Shown here piece by piece: positions 244-53,059 of a stretch of DNA of 64,000 nt. This stretch comes from Desulfobacteraceae bacterium (GTDB lineage Bacteria > Desulfobacterota > Desulfobacteria > Desulfobacterales > Desulfobacteraceae): positions 1-64,000 of the forward strand of contig QZLA01000109.1 of assembly GCA_004796375.1 (NCBI GenBank). The letters run 5' to 3'. Both the position numbers and the translations under genes were made by a program. Position 1 is the first letter of the stretch; each line of letters begins with the position of its first letter. The notes beneath the pieces are model-generated. The model was given only the letters and a program-made list of their open reading frames with translations, did not search any database and was not told the origin of the DNA.

Positions 244-3200
244 TTATCCCAATGCCTCCCGGACAATCTTTGACAACTCTCTTTGCCTGAAGGGCTTTTT
301 CAGGAAATAGAGTTTCATTGAGCTTTGTTGTATATTATCCGGTAGTTTTGAATGATCTCCTGACCAAAGAATAACAGGCAGTTCGGGGCGAATTTGCTGT
401 ACTTTTTCTGCCAGATCAATTCCCGTTATGACAGGCATGGTAATATCTGACAATAGAATGTCCCAGTCATCCGGATTCCTGACAAATCGCTCCAAAGCAT
501 CCACACTGTCTGTCAGGGCCGTCACAGAATAGCCCATTGATTCCAGCATATCCTGAGCCACAACAGAAAGGACCTCTTCATCATCCACCAAAAGGATGTT
601 TTCAACGCCCTGGTGTTGATCATTGTTCAGCTTACCCGACTTTTTGGAAGTGTGTTCATGAACCGGCAGGAAAACAAACACATCAGTTCCTTTGCCCTCA
701 ACACTATGAATCCGGATATCTCCGTTGTGGTCTTTTATGATACCGTGCACCACAGACATTCCCAGACCCGTGCCTCTTTCTTTCTCTTTGGTGGTAAAAA
801 ACGGGTCAAAAATTTTAGGCAGGATCTCCGGTGACATTCCGCAACCATTGTCTGACAGCTGAAGCCTGATATATTCGCCCGGGAGGAGATCATCATATTT
901 CCGGCTGTCTTCATTGCTGATCTGTAAAGTGTCCAGAACGATTTCCAGTGTTCCCCCATCTGCCATAGCATGTAATGCATTTGTGCTAAGGTTCATAATC
1001 ACCTGATGGATCTGGGTCGGATCCCCCATGACAAAAGGCAACCCAGGCTTAATATCCTGTTGGATATTAATGGTCGCTGGCATTGATGCCCGGATTAACT
1101 TCAATGCCTCTTTTACGACCAGGCGGACATCCACAGAGTGCATCTCCCGCTCACTTTTCCTGCTGAAGGTCAGAATCTGGGAGATCAGTTTCCTGGCACG
1201 CTCACTGCCGTCGATAATCCCGTTCAACCTGGAATAGCTCCTTGACCCCTCTTCAACGTCATCCATAACCAACTCGGCATAACCGATAATCCCCGCCAGA
1301 ATATTGTTGAAATCATGAGCAATACCACCGGCAAGCGTACCAACAGCCTCCAGTTTTTGAGACTGACGGACCCGGGATTCCAGGTTTTTCCTTTGGGTGA
1401 TATCCATATGGGTTCCCAGCATCCTCAGCGGCCTGCCTTCTCCATCTTTTTCCACCGCCCTGCCCCTGCCGAGTATCCAGCGCCAGTTTCCACCCTTTGC
1501 CAGCATTCGAAATTCCATCTCAAACGGTTCACCTGATTCAAGTGCCTGGTTCACTGCCCTTTCAGCCTGGTCCAAATCATCCGGATGAATTAGATTTTGC
1601 CAGGTTTCATAGGATGCCGGCAGTTCATCGGGATCATAACCGAGCATGGTATAATACCGGGAACTGAAATACACATCACCATTGTCAAGGCGCCAGTCCC
1701 ATACACCATCGCGGAGCGAATTTAAAACCAGGTTCAGTCGCTGCTCACTTTTTATGATCTGTTTTTCAGTTTCCTTTTTCTCGCTGATATCCCTGATACT
1801 GGTTCGAATCCCTAAATAATTCCTGTCTTCAGAATAGATGGGGCGGCAGGAAAATGAGATCCAGCTGTGCTGACCATCTTTCTTAACAATCCTGTAGTGC
1901 CGGTCATTAATGAATTTGCGTTTTGAAAGTGCTTCAGTGATATCACTGAGAGCAACCGACAGATCCTCTTCAATGATGATCATTCCAAGCTGATCCGAAA
2001 GGGCGCCCGCTTTCATGTATTCTGCCATGGAATAGCCGGTAATCCTCTCTATGGCAGGATTCAGCCAGACAAGATTGCCGTCGGGGTCCAGCCAATTCTC
2101 CCAGTCCACGGTGTAGTCGGCTATGGCTTTAAATTTTTCTTCATTCTTTTTCAGCTCTCTTTCGTACCGTTTCTGCTCACTGTCATCATGGATGGCTAAC
2201 ACCCACCCAAGGCAGTTGTTATCATACCCTCTCATCTGGGTGGCACTGATTCTCACCGGAAGTGTTTTACCGCTTTGCTGTTTCAGCTCATAAGCCTCCA
2301 GATAAAAGTGCTGATCCGTTTCCACGCAGGTATTGAGTTTTTCCCAGAAGTCGGCATGGTGACTGGTGGTTTCATGAAGAAAATCTGAAGATTTATTAAG
2401 TAACTCTGTTTTATCATATCCAAACATCTTTGAGGCCGCTGGATTGCAGTCCTTTATTCTTGGCGGGTCTGAGGCATCCAGGACCAGGATGGCATCCAAC
2501 TGGCTGCTGAATATCTTTTCCATCAAGTATCTGGAAGCATCCAGTTCCCTTGTCCGCTGCAACACAATTTTTTCAAGCTCTTCAGCCTTTTTGGATTCTA
2601 CCCTAACAATATGATCATGATACTGCTGCCGCTGAACCGCTGATGCAAACAGATCAGCCAGCCGCTTGGCGATGATCAGATCAATTTCCAAAAATTGATT
2701 TTCAGGATTTGCAAGGGCAATCTGCCCGACCAGATCTCCGCCGATCATTGCCGGGACGCCCAAAAAAGCATTGATTTTGATATGCCCCTCAGGCGTACCG
2801 CACGAACGGGGGTCTCCTTCGATATCATTCAGCATGACAGGTTGCTTGTGATCCAGCACCCAGCCAAACAAACCCGTACATTTTTCAAATTTTATTGATT
2901 TGTCAGGGATCATGCATTCCTGCCAGATATCCCGGGTCATGGTGTGACAAGTCAAGACACCCGTTTCCGGCTCATAGGTGCCAACGTAGCCGTATCTGCT
3001 CTTGGTCAGTTTTTTAGCTACATCAAGGACCTTTCCCGATATATCCACCATGTTGGTTTGGGTTAAAAGCAGGGCGGACAGATCTGCCAGCTCATGATCA
3101 ATCCGCTTTTGCAGTTCCATTTCCTCTTGGAGCTTTTTCTGCTCGACAATGGACCAGGTGACATCTGCAAAGTAGGATACGATTTCTGTGTCTCTTTCAT

Positions 3201-4392
3201 CATAATCACTGGATTTGTTTCCCACACCCAGGATAGCGACGATCAGCCCGCCCCGGATAACCGGAACGACAAGCTCACGGATGATTTTAGCATGATCGTT
3301 GGGCAGTCCCTTTTTATTGTCAAGTGATGCGTAGTCATTATGAATAACAGGCTTGCGAGTACGAACGCATTCAACCCAGACACCCGCCTTATCAACACTA
3401 TAGTGCATCCCTTTGCCGCTGATGTTGCAGAATTCATTCAAGGTACGGGTAGACCACTGCTGGAGGGTCAAGTTTTTCTGATCAGGATTGACAAAGTGAT
3501 AGAATCCAATGGGGCTGTTTACGATTTTGCCCAGATCATCCAGGGCTTTTTTTAAAAGTTCGTCCAGAGAATGGCTTGAGGCATAGCTGATGAGGGACTG
3601 GCGGGACTGAATCAGCTGATGGAGACTGCTATACGGTGTTTTATTCTTCAGGACCAGGATACTGCTGCTTCCAGTCCCGCTCTCATCGGTCACTTCAGCG
3701 CCGGTAACCATGACAGGTATTGTTTTATGGAGCTTTGAAACAACAACAAGTTTGAGGGATTGTAGTTCAGCCATTTCCTCAAACCGGTAAAAGTCAGATG
3801 GAATAGCGATTGTTTCATCCGTGTTTTCGTCGACAAGGGTCAGGATATGATCAAGAGGTTGCCCTATCGCCTCTGATGCAGAAAACCCGGTTAAAATCTG
3901 CGCGGTCATGTTGATCCGCTGGATGCAGAGGGATTGATCCAGGTAGAACGCCGCATTCTCTGATGAAGCTGACAGATCCGGCAATGTCCGGATTTGGTCA
4001 TCAAGGGTAGGCGTCAGGACAATCAGGCGATAGCGTGAGCCGTTGTCCTGATCTTCTATATGACGGATCCAGCAGGAATATGGTGTGATGTCCCCCTCTT
4101 TTTGCCGAAACCTTAGCATCATTTTGTCATCTTGTTCCAGGTTGTCCAAAATGAGATGCTGATCAGTCCCATCGAGCATCTGATGCCATTCTGCCGGGCG
4201 GTGAGTGCAGCTGTCCGGATCGACACCCAGTGACTTCCAAAACCCGGGGCTGATATACTCAACCTCCGGATCGGACAAATCTTTGAGTAAAAACCCTGTA
4301 ACAGTTTCGGTGGTGATCAGTTTCAACATATGCGGGTCCCTGCTGATGAATTGTTCCAGCCATCTCTTTAAGTGCTGTATCTTCTTGTCCAT
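244..4392 (-). CDS. PAS/GAF hybrid sensor histidine kinase with C-terminal receiver
   Basis: This is a very large cytoplasmic sensor kinase of 1382 aa. In order it shows PAS-like segments in the first ~260 residues, two GAF domains (~270-600), a coiled linker, three PAS/PAC repeats (~630-1010), HisKA (H-box AHDFNN), HATPase (N-box NLSTNALHAM, G1 DNGCGM, G2 GTGLGM) and a receiver with acidic DDEE, phospho-acceptor in LLSDITMP and Lys in KKPF. No membrane segment is seen. I prefer the ATG at 4392, which has AAGGAT upstream. A GTG at 4446 would add 18 residues. It lies 84 nt below the HD-GYP regulator and is probably the last gene of the signalling operon. The ligand is unknown. Confidence 0.9.
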   Translation of the reverse strand: MDKKIQHLKRWLEQFISRDPHMLKLITTETVTGFLLKDLSDPEVEYISPGFWKSLGVDPDSCTHRPAEWHQMLDGTDQHLILDNLEQDDKMMLRFRQKEGDITPYSCWIRHIEDQDNGSRYRLIVLTPTLDDQIRTLPDLSASSENAAFYLDQSLCIQRINMTAQILTGFSASEAIGQPLDHILTLVDENTDETIAIPSDFYRFEEMAELQSLKLVVVSKLHKTIPVMVTGAEVTDESGTGSSSILVLKNKTPYSSLHQLIQSRQSLISYASSHSLDELLKKALDDLGKIVNSPIGFYHFVNPDQKNLTLQQWSTRTLNEFCNISGKGMHYSVDKAGVWVECVRTRKPVIHNDYASLDNKKGLPNDHAKIIRELVVPVIRGGLIVAILGVGNKSSDYDERDTEIVSYFADVTWSIVEQKKLQEEMELQKRIDHELADLSALLLTQTNMVDISGKVLDVAKKLTKSRYGYVGTYEPETGVLTCHTMTRDIWQECMIPDKSIKFEKCTGLFGWVLDHKQPVMLNDIEGDPRSCGTPEGHIKINAFLGVPAMIGGDLVGQIALANPENQFLEIDLIIAKRLADLFASAVQRQQYHDHIVRVESKKAEELEKIVLQRTRELDASRYLMEKIFSSQLDAILVLDASDPPRIKDCNPAASKMFGYDKTELLNKSSDFLHETTSHHADFWEKLNTCVETDQHFYLEAYELKQQSGKTLPVRISATQMRGYDNNCLGWVLAIHDDSEQKRYERELKKNEEKFKAIADYTVDWENWLDPDGNLVWLNPAIERITGYSMAEYMKAGALSDQLGMIIIEEDLSVALSDITEALSKRKFINDRHYRIVKKDGQHSWISFSCRPIYSEDRNYLGIRTSIRDISEKKETEKQIIKSEQRLNLVLNSLRDGVWDWRLDNGDVYFSSRYYTMLGYDPDELPASYETWQNLIHPDDLDQAERAVNQALESGEPFEMEFRMLAKGGNWRWILGRGRAVEKDGEGRPLRMLGTHMDITQRKNLESRVRQSQKLEAVGTLAGGIAHDFNNILAGIIGYAELVMDDVEEGSRSYSRLNGIIDGSERARKLISQILTFSRKSEREMHSVDVRLVVKEALKLIRASMPATINIQQDIKPGLPFVMGDPTQIHQVIMNLSTNALHAMADGGTLEIVLDTLQISNEDSRKYDDLLPGEYIRLQLSDNGCGMSPEILPKIFDPFFTTKEKERGTGLGMSVVHGIIKDHNGDIRIHSVEGKGTDVFVFLPVHEHTSKKSGKLNNDQHQGVENILLVDDEEVLSVVAQDMLESMGYSVTALTDSVDALERFVRNPDDWDILLSDITMPVITGIDLAEKVQQIRPELPVILWSGDHSKLPDNIQQSSMKLYFLKKPFRQRELSKIVREALG

Positions 4393-4530
4393 GGGTATCA
4401 AATCCTTGTATAAGTAGGGCGGAGAACTATTGAGGCCCTTGATCACATCCCCAAAATAGCAATTTTTCCCGGGTAATAAAAGTGTGGGTTGTCGTACCTT
4501 CTTTTTTTCATTGCACCTCGGGCAAAATCA

Positions 4531-5676
4531 TCAGCAGGCATGATCGAGCTTTTCCTCATTTAAAGCGGTCTGCTTTACTCCGTCTGTGTTGCCGTGGGAT
4601 ACCTCCGGCTCAAGATCATCTGGCTCTGCATATTTGGTGGCAATGGCATTGAATTCTTTTTCATTCTTTAAGAATAGGTCAACCAGATCCGGATCAAATT
4701 GCTTTCCTTTGGAGTTCTTGATGATGGCAACGGCTTTGTCGTGTGAAAATGCAGGTTTATATACCCGTTTTGTGGTTAATGCGTCATAGACATCTGCCAC
4801 GGTCATTAATCGTCCGGACAACGGTATCTCCTTTTCCTTGAGGCCTTGCGGGTAACCACTGCCATCCCACTTTTCATGGTGGCTGTGTGCAATTTCGCGT
4901 GCAATGCTTAAAAAGGATTGTTTCCCCAGGCTTTTTTCAGATGCCTTGATGATATTTTTACCATAAATCGTATGTTGTTTCATCTGTTCAAATTCATGGG
5001 ATGTGAGTTTGCCGGGTTTTAGAAGCACACTGTCAGGAACCCCGACCTTGCCGATATCATGAAGCGGGGCAGATTTGACGAGCAATTCAATGATATTGTC
5101 ATCCATGGGATATTCAAGATTGCCGGACCCTGACCGCATGGCGATGGCAAGACATTGAACAAAGTTTTTGGTACGCTTGATGTGCCCGCCGGTTTCAGGG
5201 TCACGGAATTCCGCCAGATTACCTGCAATTTCAATGGTAACATCCTGGGTAAGATTTAATAAATGGGTTCTTTTAGACACGAGAAGTTCAAGGTTATCCC
5301 TGTGCTCTTTCAAAGCAATGTGATTTTTTACCCTCCGTTCAAGCAGCCTTGGATTGAACGGTTTAGTAATATAATCCACGGCTCCGTATTGTAATCCTCT
5401 GACCTCATCGTCATCGTCGTCCAGAGCGGTTAAAAAAATAATAGGGATATCCCGGGTATGACCACTGGATTTTAACCGGAGGCATACGTCGTACCCATTC
5501 ATTTCCGGCATCATGACGTCCAGTAAAATGAGATCGGGCTGCCCGTCATTGGCCAGGGAAATCGCGTCCTGGCCATTGGTCGCCACACTGATCAGATAAT
5601 GGCTGCTCAATGCACCAATCACAAGATCGATATTATGTCTGCTGTCATCCACAACAAGGATTTTTTTTGTTTTCAT
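4531..5676 (-). CDS. Response regulator with HD-GYP c-di-GMP phosphodiesterase domain
   Basis: This 381-aa protein has a receiver (~5-120: VVDDSRHN, phospho-Asp in LLDVMMPEMNG, KPF) and an HD-GYP domain (~150-345: HDIGK, HHEKWDGSGYP, DVYDAL). HD-GYP proteins hydrolyse cyclic di-GMP, and phosphorylation of the receiver normally gates the activity. The metal-binding HD and GYP residues are all present, so activity is expected. Its ATG overlaps the stop of the upstream hybrid kinase (ATGA), so the two are translationally coupled and are likely cognate partners. It is the probable output of this sensory operon, lowering c-di-GMP to change motility or attachment. That role is inferred from gene order. 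Confidence 0.93.
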   Translation of the reverse strand: MKTKKILVVDDSRHNIDLVIGALSSHYLISVATNGQDAISLANDGQPDLILLDVMMPEMNGYDVCLRLKSSGHTRDIPIIFLTALDDDDDEVRGLQYGAVDYITKPFNPRLLERRVKNHIALKEHRDNLELLVSKRTHLLNLTQDVTIEIAGNLAEFRDPETGGHIKRTKNFVQCLAIAMRSGSGNLEYPMDDNIIELLVKSAPLHDIGKVGVPDSVLLKPGKLTSHEFEQMKQHTIYGKNIIKASEKSLGKQSFLSIAREIAHSHHEKWDGSGYPQGLKEKEIPLSGRLMTVADVYDALTTKRVYKPAFSHDKAVAIIKNSKGKQFDPDLVDLFLKNEKEFNAIATKYAEPDDLEPEVSHGNTDGVKQTALNEEKLDHAC

Positions 5677-8600
5677 GCTATTTCCGGTTCATATTCATAG
5701 ATCAAGGTTTCATTCAGGTAATGTTCTGCTTTTTTAAACTGATATTCGTTAATCCATTTCAACAGGGGGGAGAGTCGGTCGTGATCGGCCTGACTAGTGG
5801 ATGTTGACAGGATTTTCTCTAGCACAGCCGTGCTTTCGATCGGTTGATGCTGTCTGATAAGTGCCATCAGTTTGGCCGTCAGTTCATCAGCCTGTTTATT
5901 GTCTTTTTTTTCCGCCTGAGCCTTAACAGGTATATCATTGTCACGGGATACCGCCCCCCGAGATGAAAGCAGTTTTTCCGCCTCTTTCGTCACTCCCGCC
6001 AGTTCCCTGAAAATGAGAGGGGTATCTTTTTTTATTACTGATTCATATTTATCTACGGTTGCATTGGCAGCAAGATCGTCATGAACGGTTTCTTTAAGAA
6101 TGGACTCCGACTTTTCAGCCAACCGGGACAAGTGGTTGGCACCAATCATCCGCGCCGTTGACTTCAAATTATGCAGGCGTAATCCAATGCTCTCAAAATT
6201 GACTTGGTTCAGATCATCGTTGAGCTGCGTCTCAAAATCCTCATAGGAACTGATAAACGTTTTCAGCATTTTCATAAACAACTGAGGATTGTGATTCACA
6301 TAATCCAATCCGGCATTCATGTCAATCGACGGTTCTTCAACCGGTGTCATATGGCTCATATGTTCAGGAGCCACGGTCAACCACTGATCAATGGTTTTGT
6401 AAAATAATTCCTGCCGAATGGGTTTCGTTATGCAATCATCCATACCACATTGCCTGCATCTGGCCTGGAACTCTTTAAGGGCATGACCAGTAATTGCAAT
6501 AATCGGCACACGCCCTGATCCATTCACATCAAGCCCCCTGATCAGACGTGATGCCTCATAACCGTCCATACCCGGCATCTGAATATCCATGAGGATGAGA
6601 TCAAATGGCTGAGACTTGACCATTTCAATGGCATCATAACCGGTTGAGGCTTCGAACAGCACCGCACCTTTTTTACTAAGGAATGCCGAAACAATCTCGC
6701 GGTTAATGGAATCATCATCCACAACCAGTACTTTCCTGGAATAAAGGCTGCTGCCTTCATCTTGACAGCCTGGTACCCTATATACGTCTGTTGCAGGAAT
6801 GGCACTGTTATGTTCACAACCATTCAGCAAACCCTTTATAAAACGCATTGGTGTAATGGTCTGGTCAAGAATTGAAAAATGAACACCATGCCGTTCGAAA
6901 AACTTTTGCTGTTTCATATTATGCTGTCCGGAAAAGTGACCGTTCTTCATAAGGAAGACGTGTAAGGCTGCTATTCCCATCAGTTTCTCAATTGTATCTG
7001 AATCTGCATTCAGGATCGATTCCATCTTGATCTCATCTACGAACAGGAACAGAGGCAGTGATTCCCTGGAACGGTAAAGAAGCAACTGAGTTGCCTTTCT
7101 TACGTTCTCGGTCATGATGCTGAAGACTTCAAGGGATTCAAGGTTCGATTTAAGCGAGTGCCCTGCATCTATATCTGCGCTCAAGATCACAGCGCCTGCA
7201 TGTTTCAGTTTTTTTACCGGAAAATGGGGTATCTCTTTGGTTCCTGACGATTTCAAGAGCAAGGAAATGCTGAACACCGACCCCTCGTCCGGACGGCTTT
7301 GCACATCAATCTCACCACCCATCAGGGCCAGCATTTTTTTAACAATCACAAGTCCAAGGCCTGTGCCGCCGTATTTTCGAGTTGTGGAGCTGTCCAGCTG
7401 CGTAAAGGGCTGAAAAAGCTTGGACAACTGAATATCTGACATGCCGATCCCCGTGTCCTTGACATGAATAGACAGCCGCTCAAATCCGTTTTCATCCTGA
7501 ACATGATCTGACATGACAATGACACTGCCTTCCAAGGTATATTTCAGAGCATTGCTGATCAGGTTCATTAGAATCTGGCTAATTCTTGCGGCATCCCCTA
7601 ATAAAAACATGGGCAGCGAGTGGTGATGCTCATATATCAATTTGATATCTTTTTCCTGGGCCGTATATTTGAGTACATCAAATATTTTTTCAATCAACGA
7701 ACCCAGCTGGAATTCCTGTTCAACTAATTCTATCTTGTCTGCTTCTATTTTTGTCAGATCAAGAATGTCACTGATAATGGATAGAAGGGCGTCTGCCGCA
7801 CCATGAATATTAGAGATAAAATGGTGCTGACTATCATCCAATGATGAATCCAGCAAGAGCCGGCTCATCCCCAGAATGGCATTCATGGGGGTCCTGATTT
7901 CATGGGACATGGTGGCCAGGAAATTAGTTTTGGCCCGTGTCGCAGACTCAGCCTGATTCTTTGCCTGTTTGAGTTGCTTGATCATTTGTTTTCGGCCGGT
8001 GATATCTTCTTTTACCGCCACATAATGGATAATATTGCCATCTGCATCGGTTATGGGTGAGATCGAGGCAGATTCCCAATACAGCTGACCATTTTTTTTT
8101 TGGTTGATAAATTCACCCTTCCATGTGTTGCCGCTGGAAAGGGTTGACCACAATTTTTTGTACTGTTTTGATGATGTCCTGCCAGCACTGAGCATTTTCG
8201 GGTTCTGCCCAATGGCTTCATCTGCCGAATACCCGGTAACTTCAGAAAATTTTGGATTAACATATTCGATATTACCGCTTGTGTCGGTAATCACCACACT
8301 CACAGGGCTGAACTCAACCGCCTGTGACAGACGCAGGATTTCTTTTTCCGTGTTCTTCTGCTCGGTGACATCCTGCATGATTTCCATAACCCTGGATGGC
8401 AGACCATTTTCGTCATAACCCGCAATACTGGTCCGGCACTGGAAAATCCGGTTCTGAGCATGAAGATCCTTATGCAAATAATTACTGACGCGGGGCTTTC
8501 CGTCTGCAAACGTCTCCTGAACAATACAGGACTTGCAATTCTCCGAAGCCCCACCGTATGCATTGATACATTTTTTGAATTCGATATCGTTTCCAAACAG

Positions 8601-9140
8601 GTTCCTGGCATGTTCATTGGCCCAGACAATGCTCATTGATTTGTCCAGTATGCAGATCGGATCGGGTATGGATGCCAGCATCCCGGCCAGCTCATTATCC
8701 TTCTGGATCAGGTCCTGGTTTATGTTCCACAATTCAGTCACATTCTCATGGGAAGCAACCGCATACCTCCGGTTTCCCATCATCACTGTGTTGAATATGA
8801 CTTTAAACCACCTTTTCTGGGTAGGGGAATGACATGGATATTCAATGGAAAACTCTTCAATCCTGCCGCAAAGAAGCTCGGCAAACCGCTGGGCAACCTC
8901 ATGTGCACCTTCGCTGCAGGCACCGACTGCCTGCTCGACAACCGTCAAGTATCGATGCCCCAGGCCGTAATTTTCGGTTTGAAGATCGTTTTCATCTGCA
9001 AAATTACGCCATGCCCGGTTGACATAAATAATTTCTGAAACATCATTCATCACTGCAATATGGTGCGGCAGGGCATCCAGTACAGACCTAAACAAATCAC
9101 CAGGTGTTGATAATGGCTCAATAGCGGCAGTTCGTTGCAT
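5673..9140 (-). CDS. Hybrid sensor kinase, PAS-HisKA-HATPase-REC-HPt (BarA/TorS-like layout)
   Basis: This 1155-aa protein has three PAS domains (roughly 12-130, 145-265, 275-390), HisKA (SHEIRTPMN), HATPase (NLISNALKYT, DTGIGM, GTGLGL), a weak receiver-like segment without a clear phospho-Asp, a true receiver (VVDDDSIN, LLMDIQMPGMDG, TKPI) and an HPt domain with the helix HNLKSTARMIGA that carries the phospho-His. No transmembrane helix is evident, so signals must be cytosolic or arrive through a partner. The built-in HPt could pass phosphate to the HD-GYP receiver encoded next. The gene starts 10 nt after the CheA-like gene, which suggests one transcript and a shared pathway with the chemoreceptor. 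Confidence 0.92.
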   Translation of the reverse strand: MQRTAAIEPLSTPGDLFRSVLDALPHHIAVMNDVSEIIYVNRAWRNFADENDLQTENYGLGHRYLTVVEQAVGACSEGAHEVAQRFAELLCGRIEEFSIEYPCHSPTQKRWFKVIFNTVMMGNRRYAVASHENVTELWNINQDLIQKDNELAGMLASIPDPICILDKSMSIVWANEHARNLFGNDIEFKKCINAYGGASENCKSCIVQETFADGKPRVSNYLHKDLHAQNRIFQCRTSIAGYDENGLPSRVMEIMQDVTEQKNTEKEILRLSQAVEFSPVSVVITDTSGNIEYVNPKFSEVTGYSADEAIGQNPKMLSAGRTSSKQYKKLWSTLSSGNTWKGEFINQKKNGQLYWESASISPITDADGNIIHYVAVKEDITGRKQMIKQLKQAKNQAESATRAKTNFLATMSHEIRTPMNAILGMSRLLLDSSLDDSQHHFISNIHGAADALLSIISDILDLTKIEADKIELVEQEFQLGSLIEKIFDVLKYTAQEKDIKLIYEHHHSLPMFLLGDAARISQILMNLISNALKYTLEGSVIVMSDHVQDENGFERLSIHVKDTGIGMSDIQLSKLFQPFTQLDSSTTRKYGGTGLGLVIVKKMLALMGGEIDVQSRPDEGSVFSISLLLKSSGTKEIPHFPVKKLKHAGAVILSADIDAGHSLKSNLESLEVFSIMTENVRKATQLLLYRSRESLPLFLFVDEIKMESILNADSDTIEKLMGIAALHVFLMKNGHFSGQHNMKQQKFFERHGVHFSILDQTITPMRFIKGLLNGCEHNSAIPATDVYRVPGCQDEGSSLYSRKVLVVDDDSINREIVSAFLSKKGAVLFEASTGYDAIEMVKSQPFDLILMDIQMPGMDGYEASRLIRGLDVNGSGRVPIIAITGHALKEFQARCRQCGMDDCITKPIRQELFYKTIDQWLTVAPEHMSHMTPVEEPSIDMNAGLDYVNHNPQLFMKMLKTFISSYEDFETQLNDDLNQVNFESIGLRLHNLKSTARMIGANHLSRLAEKSESILKETVHDDLAANATVDKYESVIKKDTPLIFRELAGVTKEAEKLLSSRGAVSRDNDIPVKAQAEKKDNKQADELTAKLMALIRQHQPIESTAVLEKILSTSTSQADHDRLSPLLKWINEYQFKKAEHYLNETLIYEYEPEIA

Positions 9141-9150
9141 ATGGACTCAC

Positions 9151-10836
9151 CTATATATTTTTTTCAATCATTTTTTCAATATCCAGGAACAATGCGGTAT
9201 GTCCTTGGATAATCATGCTGCCCTTCACTGATGAAGAAGTAAAAGTTCGTGTGTCTATATCCAATACCGTTTCCACGGTATCAAACGGTGGCGTGGCCAT
9301 TAATCCGATTTCTTTACCGTTCAAGCTGAAAACAATCACATCCTGAACATCCCTGAGCGGAAGTGGTTGGAGATCGATGAACTGGGAGATGTCGTAAAGC
9401 GGCAGTGCACCGCCTCTGTATTGAATCACCCGGCGGTCACCGATGATTTCAATAGCTGATGTGTCTATCCGTTCAATCCGTTCCACCGGTTCCAGTGGAG
9501 CGATGAAGTATTCGGTCTCATGATTTCTGAATGTGATCACTTGTTCAAGTGCGTCCCCAGATCTGTCAGCATCTGCGGGCGTTGATTCAACATACCTGGC
9601 TGAAGACAGCTCTCCCATTTGCGCAAGGTTTAAAATGTTTAATATGAGGGCAACACTGCCGTCCCCCATGATGGTTGCACCTGAAAATGCCCGGCATTGT
9701 TCTACATGCCTTCCAACAGGCTTGACGACAATTTCTTCTGAATCATAAAACTGGTTAACCACCAGACCATACCGGTAAGTACCGGCAGAAACAACAGCAA
9801 CGTGAATCGCTTTGCCGGAAGATTGGCGTCGATCATTACCTGTTCTTTTTCGCACGCACTTACCGGGTTTTGTTTTTCGTTCCTCCAGCTTTCCCGCCAC
9901 CATATCAAACTGCCTAGAGCGGCGGTCAGCTATGTTTTGCCGCCGGTCCGGCAACATCTTTCCTGTGTCTCTGTCCTCACAGGCTGCCTGAATGCCAAGC
10001 AGATCTGACAGGTTCAACAACGGCAGCAGTTCACCTCTTAATCGAATAACCGCCGTATCACCCACCCGCTCAATTCGTTCTTTTGCATCTGCCAATGGAA
10101 TCCGGATCAACTCTTTCAGATTGGCCTGCGGAATGGCATATCTTTCAGAACCGGCACCAATGATCTGGCTGGGGATAATGGCAAGGGTCAACGGCAGCCG
10201 GATCTGAACGATTGTTCCCTTACCGGGTTCTGATTCCATTTGGGTGATACCCCCAAGATGTTCAACGGCAGAGACAATATGATCATCCAATCGATCAAGC
10301 TCGTCGCCATACCCATCATCTGAAATGATAATATTTACCTGCCCGGTATCACTGAATGCTTTCAGTGTAACGGTTCCGGTACGCTGTTTTCCATAGGCCG
10401 CTCGCTCATCAGGCGGTTCAATATTCACCCTTACCGCCCGGGAAACCAATTGGTGAAGGGGAGTACTGATGGCCTCCAGGATGGTTTTCTCAATCTCCAC
10501 GTTCTGGTTTTCGATTACAAAATCAATGGATTTGTCCTGTTCCATGGCTAGATCCCTGACGACCCTGCTGAACCTGCTGATTACTGAATCCAATGACTGC
10601 ATCCGTGTTTTCATGATCGCTTCCTGGATCTCTGATGTGATCAAATCAATTCGCTGGCTTGACAGTTCAGCCATTCTGGAATTGGCAGACCTGATTCCCT
10701 GCATCAACTGGTTCCGGCATAACACCAGTTCTCCTGCAAGCCCCATCAGCGAGTCCAGAAGATTGAGATTGACCCGGATAAACCCGGTGTCTTTATCGGG
10801 TGCCGTTCTGACAGTGTTCATATTCATTTCCTTCAT
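9151..10836 (-). CDS. CheA-like pseudokinase scaffold with two CheW domains
   Basis: This 561-aa protein begins directly with a CheA dimerisation domain (~18-125: LLDSLMGLAGELV, KTRMQSLDSVISRF, FSRVVRDLA). There is no N-terminal phosphotransfer (P1) or CheY-binding (P2) domain. The ATP-binding part is degenerate. The CheA N-box HLVRNxxDHG reads QLVSRAVRVN, G1 survives as DDGYG, and the ATP lid with the GRGVGMD box is deleted, so the chain jumps to the final strand and LPLTLAI. Two CheW-like domains follow (~225-400 and ~420-561). It can probably dimerise and bind receptors but should not phosphorylate. Internal ATGs at 10827 or 10821 have better ribosome-site spacing. It sits between the receptor gene and a hybrid kinase. 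Confidence 0.85.
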   Translation of the reverse strand: MKEMNMNTVRTAPDKDTGFIRVNLNLLDSLMGLAGELVLCRNQLMQGIRSANSRMAELSSQRIDLITSEIQEAIMKTRMQSLDSVISRFSRVVRDLAMEQDKSIDFVIENQNVEIEKTILEAISTPLHQLVSRAVRVNIEPPDERAAYGKQRTGTVTLKAFSDTGQVNIIISDDGYGDELDRLDDHIVSAVEHLGGITQMESEPGKGTIVQIRLPLTLAIIPSQIIGAGSERYAIPQANLKELIRIPLADAKERIERVGDTAVIRLRGELLPLLNLSDLLGIQAACEDRDTGKMLPDRRQNIADRRSRQFDMVAGKLEERKTKPGKCVRKRTGNDRRQSSGKAIHVAVVSAGTYRYGLVVNQFYDSEEIVVKPVGRHVEQCRAFSGATIMGDGSVALILNILNLAQMGELSSARYVESTPADADRSGDALEQVITFRNHETEYFIAPLEPVERIERIDTSAIEIIGDRRVIQYRGGALPLYDISQFIDLQPLPLRDVQDVIVFSLNGKEIGLMATPPFDTVETVLDIDTRTFTSSSVKGSMIIQGHTALFLDIEKMIEKNI

Positions 10837-10850
10837 CCTTTTGGGTCCAT

Positions 10851-10883
10851 CCCTCTACCGGCGGTCTTCCAGCCGGTAGAGGG
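10851..10883 (-). repeat. 12-bp perfect hairpin between receptor and CheA-like genes
   Basis: CCCTCTACCGGC and GCCGGTAGAGGG are perfect inverted arms around a 9-nt loop, in the short gap after the chemoreceptor stop codon. No T-run follows on the minus strand, so this is not a standard intrinsic terminator. It may stabilise the receptor mRNA or reduce read-through into the next gene. Confidence 0.7.
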
Positions 10884-10892
10884 TAAAGATAT

Positions 10893-12941
10893 TCAGTTCA
10901 ACCTGAAACGGCTGACCATTTGGGTCAAGTTTTCAGCAAGGTGGGATAAATCGCCTGCACTGGTCATTACCTGTGAACTGCCGGCACTCATTTCCCCGGT
11001 TGAATGGCTGACTTCTGAAATATCCCGCGTCACTTCGCTGGCTACTGCCGATGTCTGATTGACATTCTCGTTGACTTCAGACAATCCTAGAGCCGCCTGG
11101 CTTACATTATTGGAAATCTCCTGGGTCGTGGCGCTCTGCTCTTCGATAGCCGTAGCAATGGACGCAACGATCGTGTTGATTTCATTGATGATATTCACAA
11201 TATCTTCAATGGCGTTCACCGATTCAATCGTGGTGTCCTGAACCCCTGAAATTCTTGAACTGATCTCGTTGGTTGCTTCTGCTGTCTGCTGCGCAAGTGC
11301 CTTGATCTCGCCTGCAACCACTGAAAACCCTTTTCCGGCCTCTCCTGCTCTGGCCGCCTCAATGGTTGCATTCAATGCCAGCAGGTTGGTCTGTTCGGAG
11401 ATATCGGAAATAGTGTCCGTCACCTTGTGGATTTCGCCCGCCGCCTGCTTCAATTCCTCGACTTTTTTTGAAACATCACGGGCTTTTGACACGGCCATGT
11501 TTGTGGTCTCACTCCCGTTTGCCGTATTTTCGGCAACTTCCTGGATCGTGGCCGTCATCTCTTCTGCCGCACTGACAATCATCTGGATATTCGTTGTGGT
11601 TTGTTCTGTGGCGGCTGCCACGCTGGTCATGCTGCTGCTCATCTGTTCGGCAGCAGCAGATACATCGTTTGATTTTGCAGCGGTTTGCTCTGAATTGGAA
11701 GCCATCTGGTCAGAGATAGCGGACAACTCGGTAGAGGATGATGTCAGGGTCTGGGTACCTTGAACAATATCGGTGAACATATGGTTCAGGTTCTCTGACA
11801 TCTGGTTGAGTGAACCTGCGAGCACACCGACCTCGTCCTTTTGATTGACATCCAGCTTCTGGGTCAGATCGCCGGAGGCTATTGTTTTTGCAAAATTAAC
11901 CCCCCTAATGATGGGCGCACTGATACTTTTTGCAATGAGCATTGTCAACAGGATCCCGATACCAATGGCCACCATGCTTGCAACCGTGCCCTGAGCTTTG
12001 GCACTGCCTGCCATTTTCAGCATCTGTTGATCGGTCATGATATTTTCTCTGGCTGTCTTGCGGATATCTCCCAGGATCGCCTGGGTTTCTTTTAGTGCCG
12101 GAATCGTAGTTTCCGCATAGATGGCCGTGGCCTTGTGCATCCCGTCCAGCGCGCTTACCGCTTCTTCTTTCAAGGTCCTGATGGCCGTTAAAGTGGATGC
12201 CAGTATCGGGAGGGTTTTTGATTCAAATACGGCTTTGGCTGCATCATTTGACTCTGCCATGGCAGCCGTGATATCCAAGGCAGATGCATGCAGTTTTTCA
12301 TGATTCACCAGAAGATCATCCCACGCCTTTTTGAATTCATCACTTCCAAATGAAACAATCGTTTTCGCCTCCTCAGACTCAATCCACTTGCCTAACGCAC
12401 ACTGCCTATAATCGGTCTCCACAGAGAGGGGTTCATTTTTCAGAAGAGAATCCCTGATGCTGGATGCCCAGTTCAGGTGATCAATCTCGCGTTCAAGAAG
12501 AAGGGTCGGCAGGGTAGTGTCTGCCTGCCTGAAATTCTCTTTAATGGCGGCAGCCGATTCATGGAGCTTCCGGTGCGGCTCCTCAATCGCTTTCAACAGG
12601 GGCGCAAGATCCGGTACCAGCTGTTCTGCCCCTTTTCGGCCATCACCGTATAACCATTTGCCGAATTCACATTGATGGTCGTCCATCTGGACATTCAGTT
12701 CTGTTACTGTATCATCGGTCAGTACGGCATTTACCTGATTCACCCAGTTTAAATGATCCACCTCTTTTTGAGCGATCAATGCATCCAGTTTATTTCCGCC
12801 AATCACTTCTCCTGCATTCCGGACAATGCCGCCGATGTTTGAATAGCTAAGGTAGCTGATGATACCGAGAATCAGAACAATACTTCCGATTCCAATCCCG
12901 ATTTTGTAAGATACCTTAAGATCTCTCCATACTTTCATCAT
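10893..12941 (-). CDS. Methyl-accepting chemotaxis protein with two tandem CZB domains
   Basis: This 682-aa chemoreceptor has TM1 (~13-32), a large extracytoplasmic region, TM2 (~315-335), HAMP and a complete signalling domain with the hairpin tip [19 protein letters not shown]. The sensory region holds two successive CZB (chemoreceptor zinc-binding) units. Both keep the His/Cys/His/His ligands: HLNW, CEFGKW, HRKLH in the first and HLNW, CALGKW, HEKLH in the second. CZB domains bind zinc and in characterised receptors sense zinc or oxidants through the Cys. They usually sit in the cytoplasm, so tandem copies between two membrane helices are uncommon. No CheR, CheB, CheW or CheY gene is nearby. 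The next gene is the CheA-like scaffold. Confidence 0.92.
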
Positions 12942-13022
12942 TGCTTAAATCTCCTTTAAATATATTTTAATATTTGGTCTGATGAATCCTGATGATGGAT
13001 TAACTTGTTGGCGATCTAAGAT

Positions 13023-13038
13023 AACAAGAAGTGTGCCA
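13023..13038 (-). promoter_or_regulatory. Candidate sigma-54 (-24/-12) promoter of the chemoreceptor operon
   Basis: On the minus strand TGGCAC is followed by 5 nt and TTGTT, close to the consensus TGGCAC-N5-TTGC with one change in the -12 element. It lies about 82-97 nt upstream of the chemoreceptor ATG. The next gene upstream is a sigma-54 activator, which supports the call. The non-consensus -12 keeps it tentative. Confidence 0.5.
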
Positions 13039-13080
13039 CTGACGGCGAAAAGAAAAATATCTATATAATATCAAATACTT

Positions 13081-13095
13081 ATGAAATCATTTCAT
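13081..13095. promoter_or_regulatory. Palindrome ATGAAAT-N-ATTTCAT, candidate activator site
   Basis: ATGAAATCATTTCAT is a perfect 7-1-7 inverted repeat, about 50 bp upstream of the -24 element. That is a reasonable place for an enhancer-type site bound by the adjacent NtrC-family regulator. This assignment is inferred from position and symmetry only. Confidence 0.4.
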
Positions 13096-13176: not shown

Positions 13177-14589
13177 CTATGAGGATTTTAACTGAAACTT
13201 GCGGATATAGTGGTAGATCCTGTTTTTGCTCAGGCCGGATTGCCCGGCAGCCATGTCAAGATCCCAGTCACAGCTTGCGAGAAGCACCTTAAAGTACTCA
13301 TATTCTATTTCATTTATTGCATTGTCCCGGTAATCTTTAAACACAGGCGGCGGTGAGCCGGGATCAAGGTGAGATGCCTTGGCAGGACTGTGTGTATTGA
13401 CCGATTTGAGATCAAACCCTTTTTCCAGATGAGAGATACGGATCGTTTCAGGTAACTGCATGGGATAAATCAATTCAAGATCAGGGTCTGTCAGGATGAC
13501 CCGCTCAATAACATTGACCAGTTCCCTGACATTACCCGGCCAGTCGTAATTCGCCAGCATGGTAATGGTTTCCGGCAGCAATGCTTTGGCCGGCAGTTGA
13601 TGTTCTTTACACAGTTTATCCACATAATGCAGGGACAGTGCCTTGACGTCGCCTTCCCGGAACCGCAGCGCGGGGACCTCAATCACAAACGTCTGGAGCC
13701 TGTGATAAAGATCTGCCCTGAATGTACCTTCATGGACCATTTTTTGAAGATCTCGATTCGTGGCGGATATCAGACGAAAACGGCTTGACAGTTCTTTTGC
13801 ACTTCCCACAGGCCTGTATTTTTTTTCCTGCAAAACCCTCAAAAAAGCCTTCTGGGCAGATAGCGGCAGTTCTCCGATCTCATCCAAAAACAGCGTACCG
13901 CTGTGGGCCATCGAGATTAATCCTTCGGAGGATTTATCTGCACTGGTGAAGGCACCTTTTTTATGTCCGAACAGCATGCTCTCAATCAGGGTTTCCGGCA
14001 GGGAAGCGCAGTCTACCACCACATATTCTCCTGTGTTTGAAGAAGAATTATCATGGATCATACGGGCCAGGAGTTCCTTTCCGGTTCCACTTTCACCCTG
14101 AATAAGGACATTTACCGAAGTTGATGCACTGTAGGCAACCTGATCCAGGCATTTCATGAGTGCAGCGCTTTTTCCAACTATTCCCTGTGTGGAAAGGATC
14201 AGCTTCCTTTCCTGTTTCTGTTTTTCTTTTCTGTAGTCAAGTGCCCGCTTAATCTGGAGTATCAGCTTATCCTTGTAGAAAGGCTTTTCGATATAATCCC
14301 AGGCACCATTGTTAATGGCAAGTTTTGCACCTTTAGTGCTGCCGAAAGCCGTGATGATGATGACGATAGGCGGCTGGGGCATCTGCCGGATAATGGACAA
14401 GGCTTCGAGTCCATTGCCGTCAGGAAGATTGACATCAAGAAAGATTAAATCAAATGTCTGCTGGCTGAGCAGTTCAAGGCCTTGTTTCAAAGTACCGCTT
14501 AGAAACGCCCGGTGATCCATCTCCTCAACCCTTGCAGAGATGACTTCCCTGATAAAATCCTCGTCGTCAATAATTAGAATATCTGCCAT
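13177..14589 (-). CDS. Sigma-54-dependent NtrC-family response regulator
   Basis: This 470-aa protein has a receiver (ILIIDDEDF, phospho-Asp in IFLDVNLPDGNG, Lys in EKPF), a sigma-54 AAA+ domain (Walker A GESGTGKE, the sigma-54 contact loop GAFTSA, Walker B TLFLDEIGEL, DWPGNVREL) and a C-terminal Fis-type helix-turn-helix (LSKNRIYHYIRKF). It remodels sigma-54 holoenzyme when phosphorylated. I start at the ATG at 14589, which gives the typical MADILIIDDE beginning. A TTG at 14616 is in frame. It lies 235 nt upstream of the chemoreceptor operon on the same strand, with a -24/-12-like promoter between, so it probably activates that operon. The partner kinase may be one of the two hybrid kinases. 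Confidence 0.92.
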   Translation of the reverse strand: MADILIIDDEDFIREVISARVEEMDHRAFLSGTLKQGLELLSQQTFDLIFLDVNLPDGNGLEALSIIRQMPQPPIVIIITAFGSTKGAKLAINNGAWDYIEKPFYKDKLILQIKRALDYRKEKQKQERKLILSTQGIVGKSAALMKCLDQVAYSASTSVNVLIQGESGTGKELLARMIHDNSSSNTGEYVVVDCASLPETLIESMLFGHKKGAFTSADKSSEGLISMAHSGTLFLDEIGELPLSAQKAFLRVLQEKKYRPVGSAKELSSRFRLISATNRDLQKMVHEGTFRADLYHRLQTFVIEVPALRFREGDVKALSLHYVDKLCKEHQLPAKALLPETITMLANYDWPGNVRELVNVIERVILTDPDLELIYPMQLPETIRISHLEKGFDLKSVNTHSPAKASHLDPGSPPPVFKDYRDNAINEIEYEYFKVLLASCDWDLDMAAGQSGLSKNRIYHYIRKFQLKSS

Positions 14590-14862
14590 GATATCTATAT
14601 TTTGTATTCGACTCAATCGATCAAATCAAGCAAATTCTTTGTTTTGTTTGCTCCATATTTTGTACTGCACATGTACACAAATCAAACCGGGAGTGGGTGA
14701 TATAACTATCTATATCAAAAGTGGCGTGATTTTTCCAAATGTCTGCGCGGGTATCATCCATTGGAAATATTTTTATTGCAGTCTTGTGAATCGTGCCAAT
14801 ATTGTGTTCATACACCCGATACTCCCTCTATTTATTTTGAGTCCAAGGACTAAGGTGATGAT

Positions 14863-48345: not shown

Positions 48346-49755
48346 ATGAAATCCCTTTGGAATCAAGTTAAACAATCTATTAAAGACGACATTCCCGACC
48401 ACATGTACAGAATGTGGATCGAGCCTGTCCGATTTTTAGACGCCAATGACAGCCACATTACCCTTTCGAGCCCCAACGCGTTTTCTGCCAAGCGGCTCCG
48501 GGATAACTACCTGATCATTTTTGAAAAAGCATTTTCCAAACTGGGGATTGATGATGTTAAAATAGATCTTTCTGTTAATAAAGCGGTCACCCCCTCAAAA
48601 GAAGCACCCACCCAAAACCCTCAAGGCATTGAAAACAGGACTGCCTCCTATCCGGCCCTGCCTGCATACACGGCACGGGCGTTTGATAGACAGATGGAAA
48701 TCCCCGGCCTGGATATCCCCTTTAAAAGCGGCAGGATGTTTAAAAAAGAATTTACATTTGATGATTTTGTGGTGGGCGACAATTCAGATTTTGCATATTC
48801 CGCGTCATTGTCCCTGGCCCAGGGGCATTTTACCGGAAATAATATCCTCTACCTTCTTTCCGGTACCGGCCTGGGCAAAAGCCACCTGTCCCAGGCCGCC
48901 GGCCGCCATATCATCACGAAAGGGTATTCAGACTCGGTTTACTATGTCACTGCTGAAGATTTTACCAATGAGATGATCTTCTCTTTGAAAAACAATAAAA
49001 TTGAGCAGTTCAAGGAAAAATACAGAACAAGGTGTGATGTGCTGATCCTTGAAGATATCCATTTCCTGGCAGGGAAAGATGCCACCCAGAAAGAGCTGGC
49101 CATCACGTTGGATTACCTGTTGGACGCCAATAAGAAAATCATCTTTTCCGGCTGCAATCTTCCGGACGAGATCCCCAAAATGAATGATCAGCTCAAGTCG
49201 AGACTCAAACTCGGCCTGATTACCAAGATTGACCGGCCCAACTATAAAACCCGGGTAAAAATTCTAAAGAAAAAATCCAAGTGCAATGGCTACCTGATCC
49301 CTGAAGATGTGGTGGAATACCTGGCCCAGGAACTTAGCGAGGATGTCCGACAGCTTGAAAGCGGATTGAACGGTGTCGCGGCAAGAGCCAGCCTCTTGGG
49401 AGAGCAGATCGATATTGATCTGGCCAGAAGCGTTTTGGAAACCTTTTCCCTGCAACGAAAACTGGTCACCGTGGATCGAATTAAAAAACTGGTCTGCAAG
49501 GAGTTTAGCATATCGGAAAAAGAGATCATCTCAGCATCCCGGAAGCAGAAAATCGTCAAGCCCAGGCAGATGGGCATTTTTCTTTCCAGGAAGTATACGG
49601 ACCAGCCCTTGAAGAACATCGGGAAGAGCTTCAACCGGTATCATGCCACGGCCATATATGCCATCAATGCCGTGGAAAAAGAGATCAAGCAGAAAGGGCA
49701 GCTGTTTGAACAGGTGAAGTACCTTTCCCGGAAAATCGAATCAGGCAACCTATAA
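48346..49755 (+). CDS. dnaA: Divergent chromosomal replication initiator DnaA
   Basis: This 469-aa protein has all DnaA domains. Domain I is ~1-75, followed by a linker and an AAA+ domain (~130-350: Walker A GTGLGKSHLSQA, Walker B LILEDIHFLAGK, and LKSRLKLGL in place of the usual RSRFxxGL). Domain IV carries KPRQMGIFLSRKYTDQPL. The DnaA-box recognition signature, normally GGRDHTTVLHA, reads NRYHATAIYAI; the Asp is Tyr and one residue is missing. It may therefore recognise other boxes. dnaN is not adjacent; a GlcD-like oxidase follows after 2 nt. It could be the main initiator or a second paralogue. Confidence 0.88.
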   Translation: MKSLWNQVKQSIKDDIPDHMYRMWIEPVRFLDANDSHITLSSPNAFSAKRLRDNYLIIFEKAFSKLGIDDVKIDLSVNKAVTPSKEAPTQNPQGIENRTASYPALPAYTARAFDRQMEIPGLDIPFKSGRMFKKEFTFDDFVVGDNSDFAYSASLSLAQGHFTGNNILYLLSGTGLGKSHLSQAAGRHIITKGYSDSVYYVTAEDFTNEMIFSLKNNKIEQFKEKYRTRCDVLILEDIHFLAGKDATQKELAITLDYLLDANKKIIFSGCNLPDEIPKMNDQLKSRLKLGLITKIDRPNYKTRVKILKKKSKCNGYLIPEDVVEYLAQELSEDVRQLESGLNGVAARASLLGEQIDIDLARSVLETFSLQRKLVTVDRIKKLVCKEFSISEKEIISASRKQKIVKPRQMGIFLSRKYTDQPLKNIGKSFNRYHATAIYAINAVEKEIKQKGQLFEQVKYLSRKIESGNL

Positions 49756-51427: not shown

Positions 51428-53059
51428 CTAACTATAGTTACTTTTTACCATATATTCAAGTTTTTCTACGAGGGGCTCCAAGGTACCCCTGTCCCTGGCG
51501 CTGACACATATGCCATTGTTTATCAGCCATTTATCCTCAAATTCATCCATATTCACCCGGTCAATTTTATTAAAAACATACATACTGGGGATGGTGGACA
51601 GTTTCAGGCGGGACATAATGCTTTCTACCGCTTCCATCTGCTGCTTAAACCGTGGATTGGAGATATCCACCACATGAAGAATGATATCCGCATCCCTGAG
51701 TTCTTCAAGGGTTGCATGAAATGCTTCCATCAGCGCTTTGGGCAAATGCTGTATAAATCCAACCGTATCCGTGATAATCACTTCCGTATCCTTGGGGAAT
51801 CTCAGACGGCGTGAAGATGGATCCAGGGTGGCAAACAGGCGGTTTGCGGCGATGATCTTACTCTGGGTCAATGTATTGAGAAGGGTGGATTTCCCGGCAT
51901 TGGTGTATCCCACAATGGAGATGATCGGCAGGTCTTTTCGCTTGCGCCTTGCTTTCTGCTGCAGCCGCTGCTTTCGGATCTTATCGATCTCCTTTTTCAG
52001 CTGGGTGATTTTATCCCTGACCCGCCGCCGGTTAATCTCCAGCTTGGTTTCTCCGGGGCCCCTGCCGCCGATACCGCCGGTTAGCCTGGACATGGCTGTA
52101 TTTTTAGTCACCAGCCGGGGCAGAAGATACTCCATCTGGGCCAGCTCCACCTGGAATTTTCCCTCTCTGGATTTGGCCTGGTGGGCAAAGATATCCAGAA
52201 TCAGCTGGGTTCGGTCGATCACCTTCATTTCCACAAAATCGGTAATCGAGCGGATCTGTGATGGCGTCAGCTCCCGGTCAAAGATCAGCATGGTGGCATA
52301 TTTCTGGATGGCGGAAATGGTCAGATCCGCCAGTTTTCCCCTCCCCACGACAAACTTGGGATCGATTTTTCTCCTACGCTGGACTGCGGTTCCGATCACA
52401 TTGATACCGCTGGTCTTGCACAACTCCTTGAGTTCTTCCAGAGAGGCCCTGGATTCCCTGGGATCGTCCGTGGTGGCATTGATTAAAAACGCCGATTCCT
52501 CGCCGCTGCCTGCTTTGTGAAGGGAATTTTTCCTTGAAAGTTCTGTTTCAAGGGCCAGGATCCGCCCCATACAGTCCATGGCCGTATCATGAATGGTAAA
52601 CGGCTTTAGAACTTCATAGGGTGCCCCCTCTTCATCCACCAGGATATGCCCGGCATATACCGGTCCGGGCCGCCCGTCTTCCAGAACCGTGACCGCAGCC
52701 ATAAAGTCAAGCCTGAGCAGCGCCAGGTCGGTGAGGTCATCCTTGGTCAGGATTTCATTTTTCAAATGGGTATGAATACATCTCAACCCCTTGAGCCGTC
52801 CGGGAATCGCCATATGGTTCGGTGTCACCGGAATCATGATGCCGTGGGCATCCCCGATAATCACATGCTGGGTTTTCCCGTTCCGGTCTACCAGGATACC
52901 GATCTGCCGTCGGATCTGATGAGACAATGATACCAGGCGCGCCCCCTGCTCCGATGTGAACAACTCATCCGGCGGAACGGTTAAATCATACAGTTTTTCA
53001 ATCTGCTTGATCTGGGCCGGTCGCAGCCCTGATGTGTTACCGATGACGTTTCGTTTCAT
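51428..53059 (-). CDS. hflX: Ribosome-associated GTPase HflX
   Basis: This 543-aa GTPase rescues or splits stalled ribosomes. It has the HflX N-terminal domain, a coiled linker, GGIGGRGPGETKLE, Walker A GYTNAGKSTLLN, switch DTVGFIQHLPK and FNKIDRV. It is about 100 residues longer than E. coli HflX because of an N-terminal extension (~1-190), as seen in many Desulfobacterota. The ATG overlaps dnaB's end (ATGA), making it the last gene of the rpsF operon. Confidence 0.95.
   Translation of the reverse strand: MKRNVIGNTSGLRPAQIKQIEKLYDLTVPPDELFTSEQGARLVSLSHQIRRQIGILVDRNGKTQHVIIGDAHGIMIPVTPNHMAIPGRLKGLRCIHTHLKNEILTKDDLTDLALLRLDFMAAVTVLEDGRPGPVYAGHILVDEEGAPYEVLKPFTIHDTAMDCMGRILALETELSRKNSLHKAGSGEESAFLINATTDDPRESRASLEELKELCKTSGINVIGTAVQRRRKIDPKFVVGRGKLADLTISAIQKYATMLIFDRELTPSQIRSITDFVEMKVIDRTQLILDIFAHQAKSREGKFQVELAQMEYLLPRLVTKNTAMSRLTGGIGGRGPGETKLEINRRRVRDKITQLKKEIDKIRKQRLQQKARRKRKDLPIISIVGYTNAGKSTLLNTLTQSKIIAANRLFATLDPSSRRLRFPKDTEVIITDTVGFIQHLPKALMEAFHATLEELRDADIILHVVDISNPRFKQQMEAVESIMSRLKLSTIPSMYVFNKIDRVNMDEFEDKWLINNGICVSARDRGTLEPLVEKLEYMVKSNYS

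Follow-up and report, generated by a model that had tools for sequence, protein, structure and literature searches.

The 64,000-nucleotide stretch of Desulfobacteraceae DNA analyzed here (the window) contains a minus-strand gene cluster that we read, with a probability of about 0.6, as a sigma-54-dependent operon joining two devices, namely a self-contained relay from a hybrid histidine kinase to an HD-GYP phosphodiesterase, and a chemoreceptor with a CheA-like scaffold that would serve the main CheA array of the cell. We document the gene content of this cluster, the loss of kinase motifs from the scaffold, domain-wise selection in the scaffold's relatives, the modularity of the cluster, and the conserved position of its promoter. 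The features of the cluster are as follows, from upstream to downstream:

13177..14616, minus strand: NtrC-type sigma-54 activator (REC-AAA), of module B type by identity (see below)
13039-13023, minus strand: −24/−12 (sigma-54) promoter-like site GTGGCACACTTCTTGTT, 81 bp upstream of the receptor start
10893..12941, minus strand: membrane MCP chemoreceptor with two CZB domains, HAMP and MCPsignal (Pfam)
9151..10836, minus strand: short CheA-like scaffold with P3, a P4 remnant, P5 with an insertion and a second CheW domain, without P1 and without REC
5673..9140, minus strand: soluble PAS hybrid histidine kinase, PAS-HisKA-HATPase-REC-HPt (Pfam), with no transmembrane segment
4531..5676, minus strand: predicted REC-HD-GYP c-di-GMP phosphodiesterase, REC-HD (Pfam), motifs intact
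244..4446, minus strand: GAF-GAF-PAS hybrid kinase of the NtrB type (HDFNN) with a C-terminal REC, the last gene of the conserved cluster

As the first-pass annotation had it, the receptor, scaffold, hybrid kinase, and HD-GYP genes are consecutive on the minus strand, with their domains confirmed by Pfam, gaps of 56 bp and 10 bp followed by a 4-bp overlap, and no CheR, CheB or CheY gene between them. While that list holds for these four genes, it placed the limit of the cluster too early and missed the fifth, GAF-GAF-PAS hybrid kinase gene (244-4446), which starts 84 bp downstream of the HD-GYP gene and has a homologue, 52-72% identical, at the same position in each of the related clusters L067, L068, and L073. 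The product of this gene is likely the partner of the cluster's NtrC regulator. The scaffold, the hybrid kinase, and the HD-GYP protein are all without a membrane segment. Elsewhere in the window, at 48346-49755 and 53056-54435, lie genes for a DnaA-like protein and a DnaB-like replicative helicase, both named from sequence.

The scaffold is, on its sequence, plainly a CheA paralogue. Pfam recognizes H-kinase_dim and CheW domains, plus a sub-threshold HATPase_c match (21.2 bits against a cutoff of 26.4), and the best PDB match of its AlphaFold2 model (mean pLDDT 69.7) is the CheA structure 1b3q. The domain most like that of a full CheA is P3 (PF02895, 6.9e-11), which starts at residue 19 and is 73% identical to the P3 of the full CheA from the same genome, and the three matches to CheW (PF01584, 3.6e-34) represent two domains, the first of which is split by an insertion, a feature reported for the CheA of Desulfobacteraceae (PMC10782961). 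Set against the makeup of a CheA, the scaffold thus has P3 and P5/CheW but neither P1, for which no Hpt match is found in its 561 residues, nor a P4 with all four of its motifs (the N, G1, F, and G2 boxes): G1 retains its DDGxG, the N box has both its Asn and its His substituted, and F and G2 have been deleted. The initial description of this protein as kinase-dead and lacking a phosphotransfer domain is thereby upheld, and these losses support the prediction that it would be incapable of acting as either kinase or phosphodonor. Nor does the scaffold pass as half of a bipartite CheA, which would combine a separate HPt gene with an active P4, as its own P4 is dead; the HPt of the hybrid kinase does not match CheA P1 and belongs to another HPt family. 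Its closest intact relatives are CheA proteins of ∼1085 residues (P1, P3, P4, two CheW, REC), and on contig C405 the genome of the window itself carries a full CheA of this class in company with CheW, CheB, and CheR genes. This protein would be a candidate for the alternative that the first-pass annotation allowed for, in which a complete CheA from another locus is the true partner.

In an alignment of 15 short forms with full CheA proteins, all P4 boxes are kept in L040, L042, and L060, only the F box differs in L043, the G2 box is altered in L041, and the lid is missing in L039; the N, F, and G2 boxes are gone in most of the short scaffolds, L044 has no P4, and the related L061 lacks both P4 and P3. 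A series in which relatives lose P1, P4, and then P3 in steps could be taken to mean that the scaffold is a functionless duplicate of CheA decaying toward a pseudogene, but the reading frames are open and have repeatedly been retained together with an MCP gene, the position of the promoter is conserved, and P3 and P5 are under purifying selection in the dead forms L056 and L057. Specifically, dN/dS in this close pair is 0.15 for P3, 0.12 for P5, 0.25 for the second CheW domain, and 0.45 for P4, a pattern which argues that the protein is retained, with its kinase domain relaxed and its assembly domains kept; P4 has a value of 0.18 in L040/L042, a pair with intact P4 boxes. Across six dead forms, invariant columns number 25 of 63 in P3, 57 of 155 in P5, and 9 of 113 in P4. 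We note that these selection figures are taken from relatives, as those of the window scaffold itself are too distant for dN/dS. We regard decay as a very unlikely account of the scaffold.

The strong constraint on P3, and its 73% identity to the full protein, would also suit a scaffold that forms a mixed dimer with full CheA through P3-P3 contacts, where it would be a tuning or dominant-negative subunit and have little part in linking the receptor, and those P1-less forms that have an intact P4 could phosphorylate the P1 of the full CheA in trans. However, the scaffold gene has an MCP gene as its close companion at 13 loci, and the L061 form does without P3 and P4; both observations suggest a receptor-linked role in the array, and we consider regulation by heterodimer formation to be distinctly unlikely. 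In the phylogenetic tree, the short forms either sit outside the clade of full-length CheA proteins or branch at its base, a topology compatible with one or several origins. A ∼1085-residue CheA of the same class is also present in every scaffold-bearing genome, which is weak evidence for a partnership since most genomes of the family carry a full CheA.

A scan of the named genomes with the window scaffold alone as the query returned nothing, and a scan with the scaffold alignment returned mainly full CheA proteins. We also observed P1-less CheA-like proteins, with P4 boxes intact or partly lost, adjoining MCP genes in Desulfobotulus, Desulfobulbus, and Desulfobacterium records (L101:8983-10812, L110:8707-10776, and L162:629-2560). 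Separately, a family of ∼130-residue proteins without a Pfam match, possibly degenerate receivers, recurs beside short scaffolds and one full CheA (L048:7685-8077, L039:4383-4787, L041:6356-6775, L058:10592-10981, L061:10231-10617, and L051:2286-2663).

The relatives of the cluster fall into two modules. Module A, an MCP gene followed by a short CheA-like scaffold, is found at 12 loci besides the window (L039-L044, L048, and L056-L060), 11 of them in ten other genomes and one more in the window's own genome. A GAF hybrid kinase and an NtrC regulator frequently lie upstream, and a CheW gene is sometimes present as well. At none of these 12 loci is the module followed by an HPt-bearing PAS kinase and an HD-GYP gene, with L048, L057, and L060 ending at contig ends. 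Module B, which runs NtrC, receptor slot, hybrid kinase, HD-GYP, and GAF kinase, occurs in three other genomes (L067, L068, and L073), in every case without the scaffold. The window's NtrC protein is 59-78% identical to the module B regulators and at most 44% identical to those of module A, which makes the window a module B whose slot is filled by a module-A-like receptor and scaffold. The contents of this slot vary: L073 has a different MCP of the dCache type and no scaffold, L068 has an empty slot with the kinase directly after NtrC, and the MCP gene of L067 (3560-4502) is frameshifted by an internal deletion of 1136 bp, with the neighboring genes, including the kinase (55%) and HD-GYP (75%) genes, still open. 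The gap of 200 bp in L067 was searched by tblastn and blastn for traces of a scaffold, and no match exceeded chance. The expectation that the order of the four genes would be conserved in relatives hence fails, as MCP and scaffold occur 12 times without the kinase and HD-GYP genes, and the kinase and HD-GYP cluster three times without the scaffold. Among the genomes searched, only that of the window has the four genes as a unit, which weighs against an established pathway.

What does recur upstream is the promoter. The site GTGGCACACTTCTTGTT scores 0.81 of the maximum, a value reached by ∼0.003 of the shuffles of that intergenic region, with a perfect GG element and GT in place of the GC element. 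Most loci of modules A and B, including L068, have a site of the −24/−12 type ahead of the receptor gene or of whichever gene comes first, with no site of note in this position in L059 and L055. The sigma-54 activator and the −24/−12 site that were proposed early on do belong with the cluster, and the recurrence of these sites supports the idea that sigma-54 would control whatever fills the receptor slot. With its −24/−12 site and adjacent AAA activator, the window cluster fits a sigma-54-dependent operon, of which the transcription is predicted.

The hybrid kinase and the HD-GYP protein form a complete and conserved pair. In the kinase, SHEIRTP and the N, G1, and G2 boxes are present, as are the aspartate of the receiver and the histidine of the HPt, and the HD-GYP protein carries HDIGK at 206, H235, HHEKWDGSGYP at 266, and D295, a motif set from which phosphodiesterase activity, that is, hydrolysis of c-di-GMP, is predicted. 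The two genes are also adjacent in about nine further genomes, six of which lack the other genes of module B. At E ≤ 1e-125, the hybrid kinase is found in 7 of the 389 genomes searched from the order, and each of the seven belongs to this family.

The first-pass annotation was right as to the dead scaffold, the complete kinase and HD-GYP pair, and the sigma-54 link, but it went further in proposing that an array of CZB receptors, assembled on the dead scaffold, directly controls the hybrid kinase, and through its HPt the HD-GYP protein, so as to lower c-di-GMP. Such coupling would suit the tightness of the operon and the placement of a receptor slot before the kinase in three of the four module B clusters (the window, the remnant in L067, and L073). 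A second case of a dead scaffold near an HPt and a receiver-bearing enzyme is L056 (7379-10540), where an MCP, a dead scaffold, a stand-alone HPt with the P1-like motif AHSIKG, and a REC-SpoIIE phosphatase stand in a row; L057 (1-2688) begins in the same way, its MCP, dead scaffold, and stand-alone HPt being followed by a REC protein. The idea that the HPt proteins of these two loci are detached CheA P1 domains is weakly supported. On the other side, the kinase and HD-GYP genes persist where the receptor is broken (L067), absent (L068), or of a different kind (L073), the scaffold occurs in no other module B, the hybrid kinase has PAS sensors of its own and no CheW-like domain, and CZB receptors of the window type are mostly orphans elsewhere. 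Control of the kinase by a receptor array by way of the scaffold is consequently not supported as a general mechanism, we consider it unlikely for the window, and two separate devices under one promoter are the more likely of the two readings.

Two observations do count against separate devices. The dead scaffolds followed by HPt and REC proteins in L056 and L057 hint that such scaffolds can serve dedicated HPt/REC outputs, and the layout of G066, a genome with an MCP-scaffold pair in one place and a module B lacking the scaffold in another, makes it possible that receptor and scaffold couple to module B in trans. Extending this, one could picture the dead, P1-less CheA paralogues as dedicated assembly proteins that build receptor complexes for phosphorelays other than that of CheA, these being the relay from the hybrid kinase and its HPt to the HD-GYP protein in the window and the stand-alone HPt and REC-SpoIIE pair of L056. 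We hold this joint proposal to be improbable, but were it true, it would amount to a chemosensory design that keeps the lattice and outsources the kinase.

Both CZB domains of the window receptor retain the set of three His and one Cys, and together with the MCP signaling domain this places the protein among CZB chemoreceptors, with zinc binding and oxidant sensing as putative functions. The two CZB domains lie between membrane segments at residues ∼9-40 and ∼316-348 and are hence predicted to be periplasmic, a minority placement that accounts for ∼3.9% of CZB sequences (PMC8262984). The receptor's signaling domain is 58-70% identical to those of the MCPs paired with short scaffolds in relatives. 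The full-length or near-full-length relatives, 42-61% identical, are mostly orphans: those in G003, G283, G350, G007, G022, G018, G076, and G073 have no scaffold or HD-GYP neighbor, and the one in G372 belongs to a cluster that contains another CheA. Such orphan receptors must already operate with a CheA whose gene lies elsewhere. In L089, an MCP with a related signaling domain (50%) adjoins a two-CheW CheA with a receiver.

Taken as two separate devices, the operon would work as follows. In the first, the soluble hybrid kinase, sensing through its own PAS domains with no need of the receptor, would autophosphorylate and relay the phosphate internally, via its receiver and HPt, before handing it to the HD-GYP receiver, a direction that is assumed here, and the phosphorylated HD-GYP protein would then lower c-di-GMP. 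In the second, the CZB receptor and the dead CheA paralogue would probably enter the main chemoreceptor array as structural additions: since the scaffold keeps P3 and the domains that bind CheW and receptors (P5 and CheW), it would occupy CheA positions or pair with the full CheA of C405, its presumptive partner. Either way, it would recruit the periplasmic CZB sensor and dilute or retune kinase activity. The GAF hybrid kinase and the NtrC regulator would turn the operon on from the −24/−12 site, so that one switch could shift motility bias and c-di-GMP together.

It is useful to compare this arrangement with known systems. The array adaptors CheW and CheV are non-catalytic array proteins with CheW domains, and the window scaffold is likewise non-catalytic with CheW domains but differs from them in also having P3, a P4 remnant, and two CheW domains. 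Wsp combines an active CheA kinase with a diguanylate cyclase. In contrast, the CheA-like protein of the window is dead, and its enzyme is an HD-GYP phosphodiesterase with a hybrid kinase of its own; no set of the Wsp or ACF type (active CheA, CheR, CheB, and diguanylate cyclase) is present in the window cluster. The likeness to Wsp-type chemosensory control (e.g., PMC9758175) is that receptor genes adjoin an enzyme of c-di-GMP turnover. As in the split kinase of Cereibacter (Rhodobacter) sphaeroides, the functions of CheA are divided among paralogues; there, CheA3 has a dead P4 and a live P1, and CheA4 has P4 without P1, with only dimerization, kinase, and CheW domains (PMC10782961). The window scaffold, lacking both P1 and a working P4, differs from CheA3, which keeps P1, and from CheA4, which keeps the kinase. 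It shares the P3-P4-P5-CheW order and the insertion in the first CheW domain with the two-CheW CheA of Desulfobacteraceae, of which it is a clear paralogue (PMC10782961), but it is without P1, an intact P4, and the C-terminal receiver. In a survey of 13,673 CheA proteins, P1, P3, P4, and P5 form the core of all homologues, with P1 sometimes encoded by a separate gene (PMC10782961), and by combining both losses, the window scaffold is not a CheA by this definition, although it is a CheA paralogue. The literature search, mostly outside subscription journals, found no description of a dead, P1-less CheA or of the four-gene arrangement, in keeping with the original statement that no described system with this exact set was known.

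In this cluster, the provision of a receptor and the breakdown of c-di-GMP would come under a single sigma-54 switch. The part of the finding most worth following is the lineage of dead scaffolds, which departs from the P1/P3/P4/P5 core rule in graded steps, under selection and paired with receptors. The short scaffolds of this family are natural separation-of-function variants, suited to asking what CheA contributes to array architecture independently of phosphorylation.
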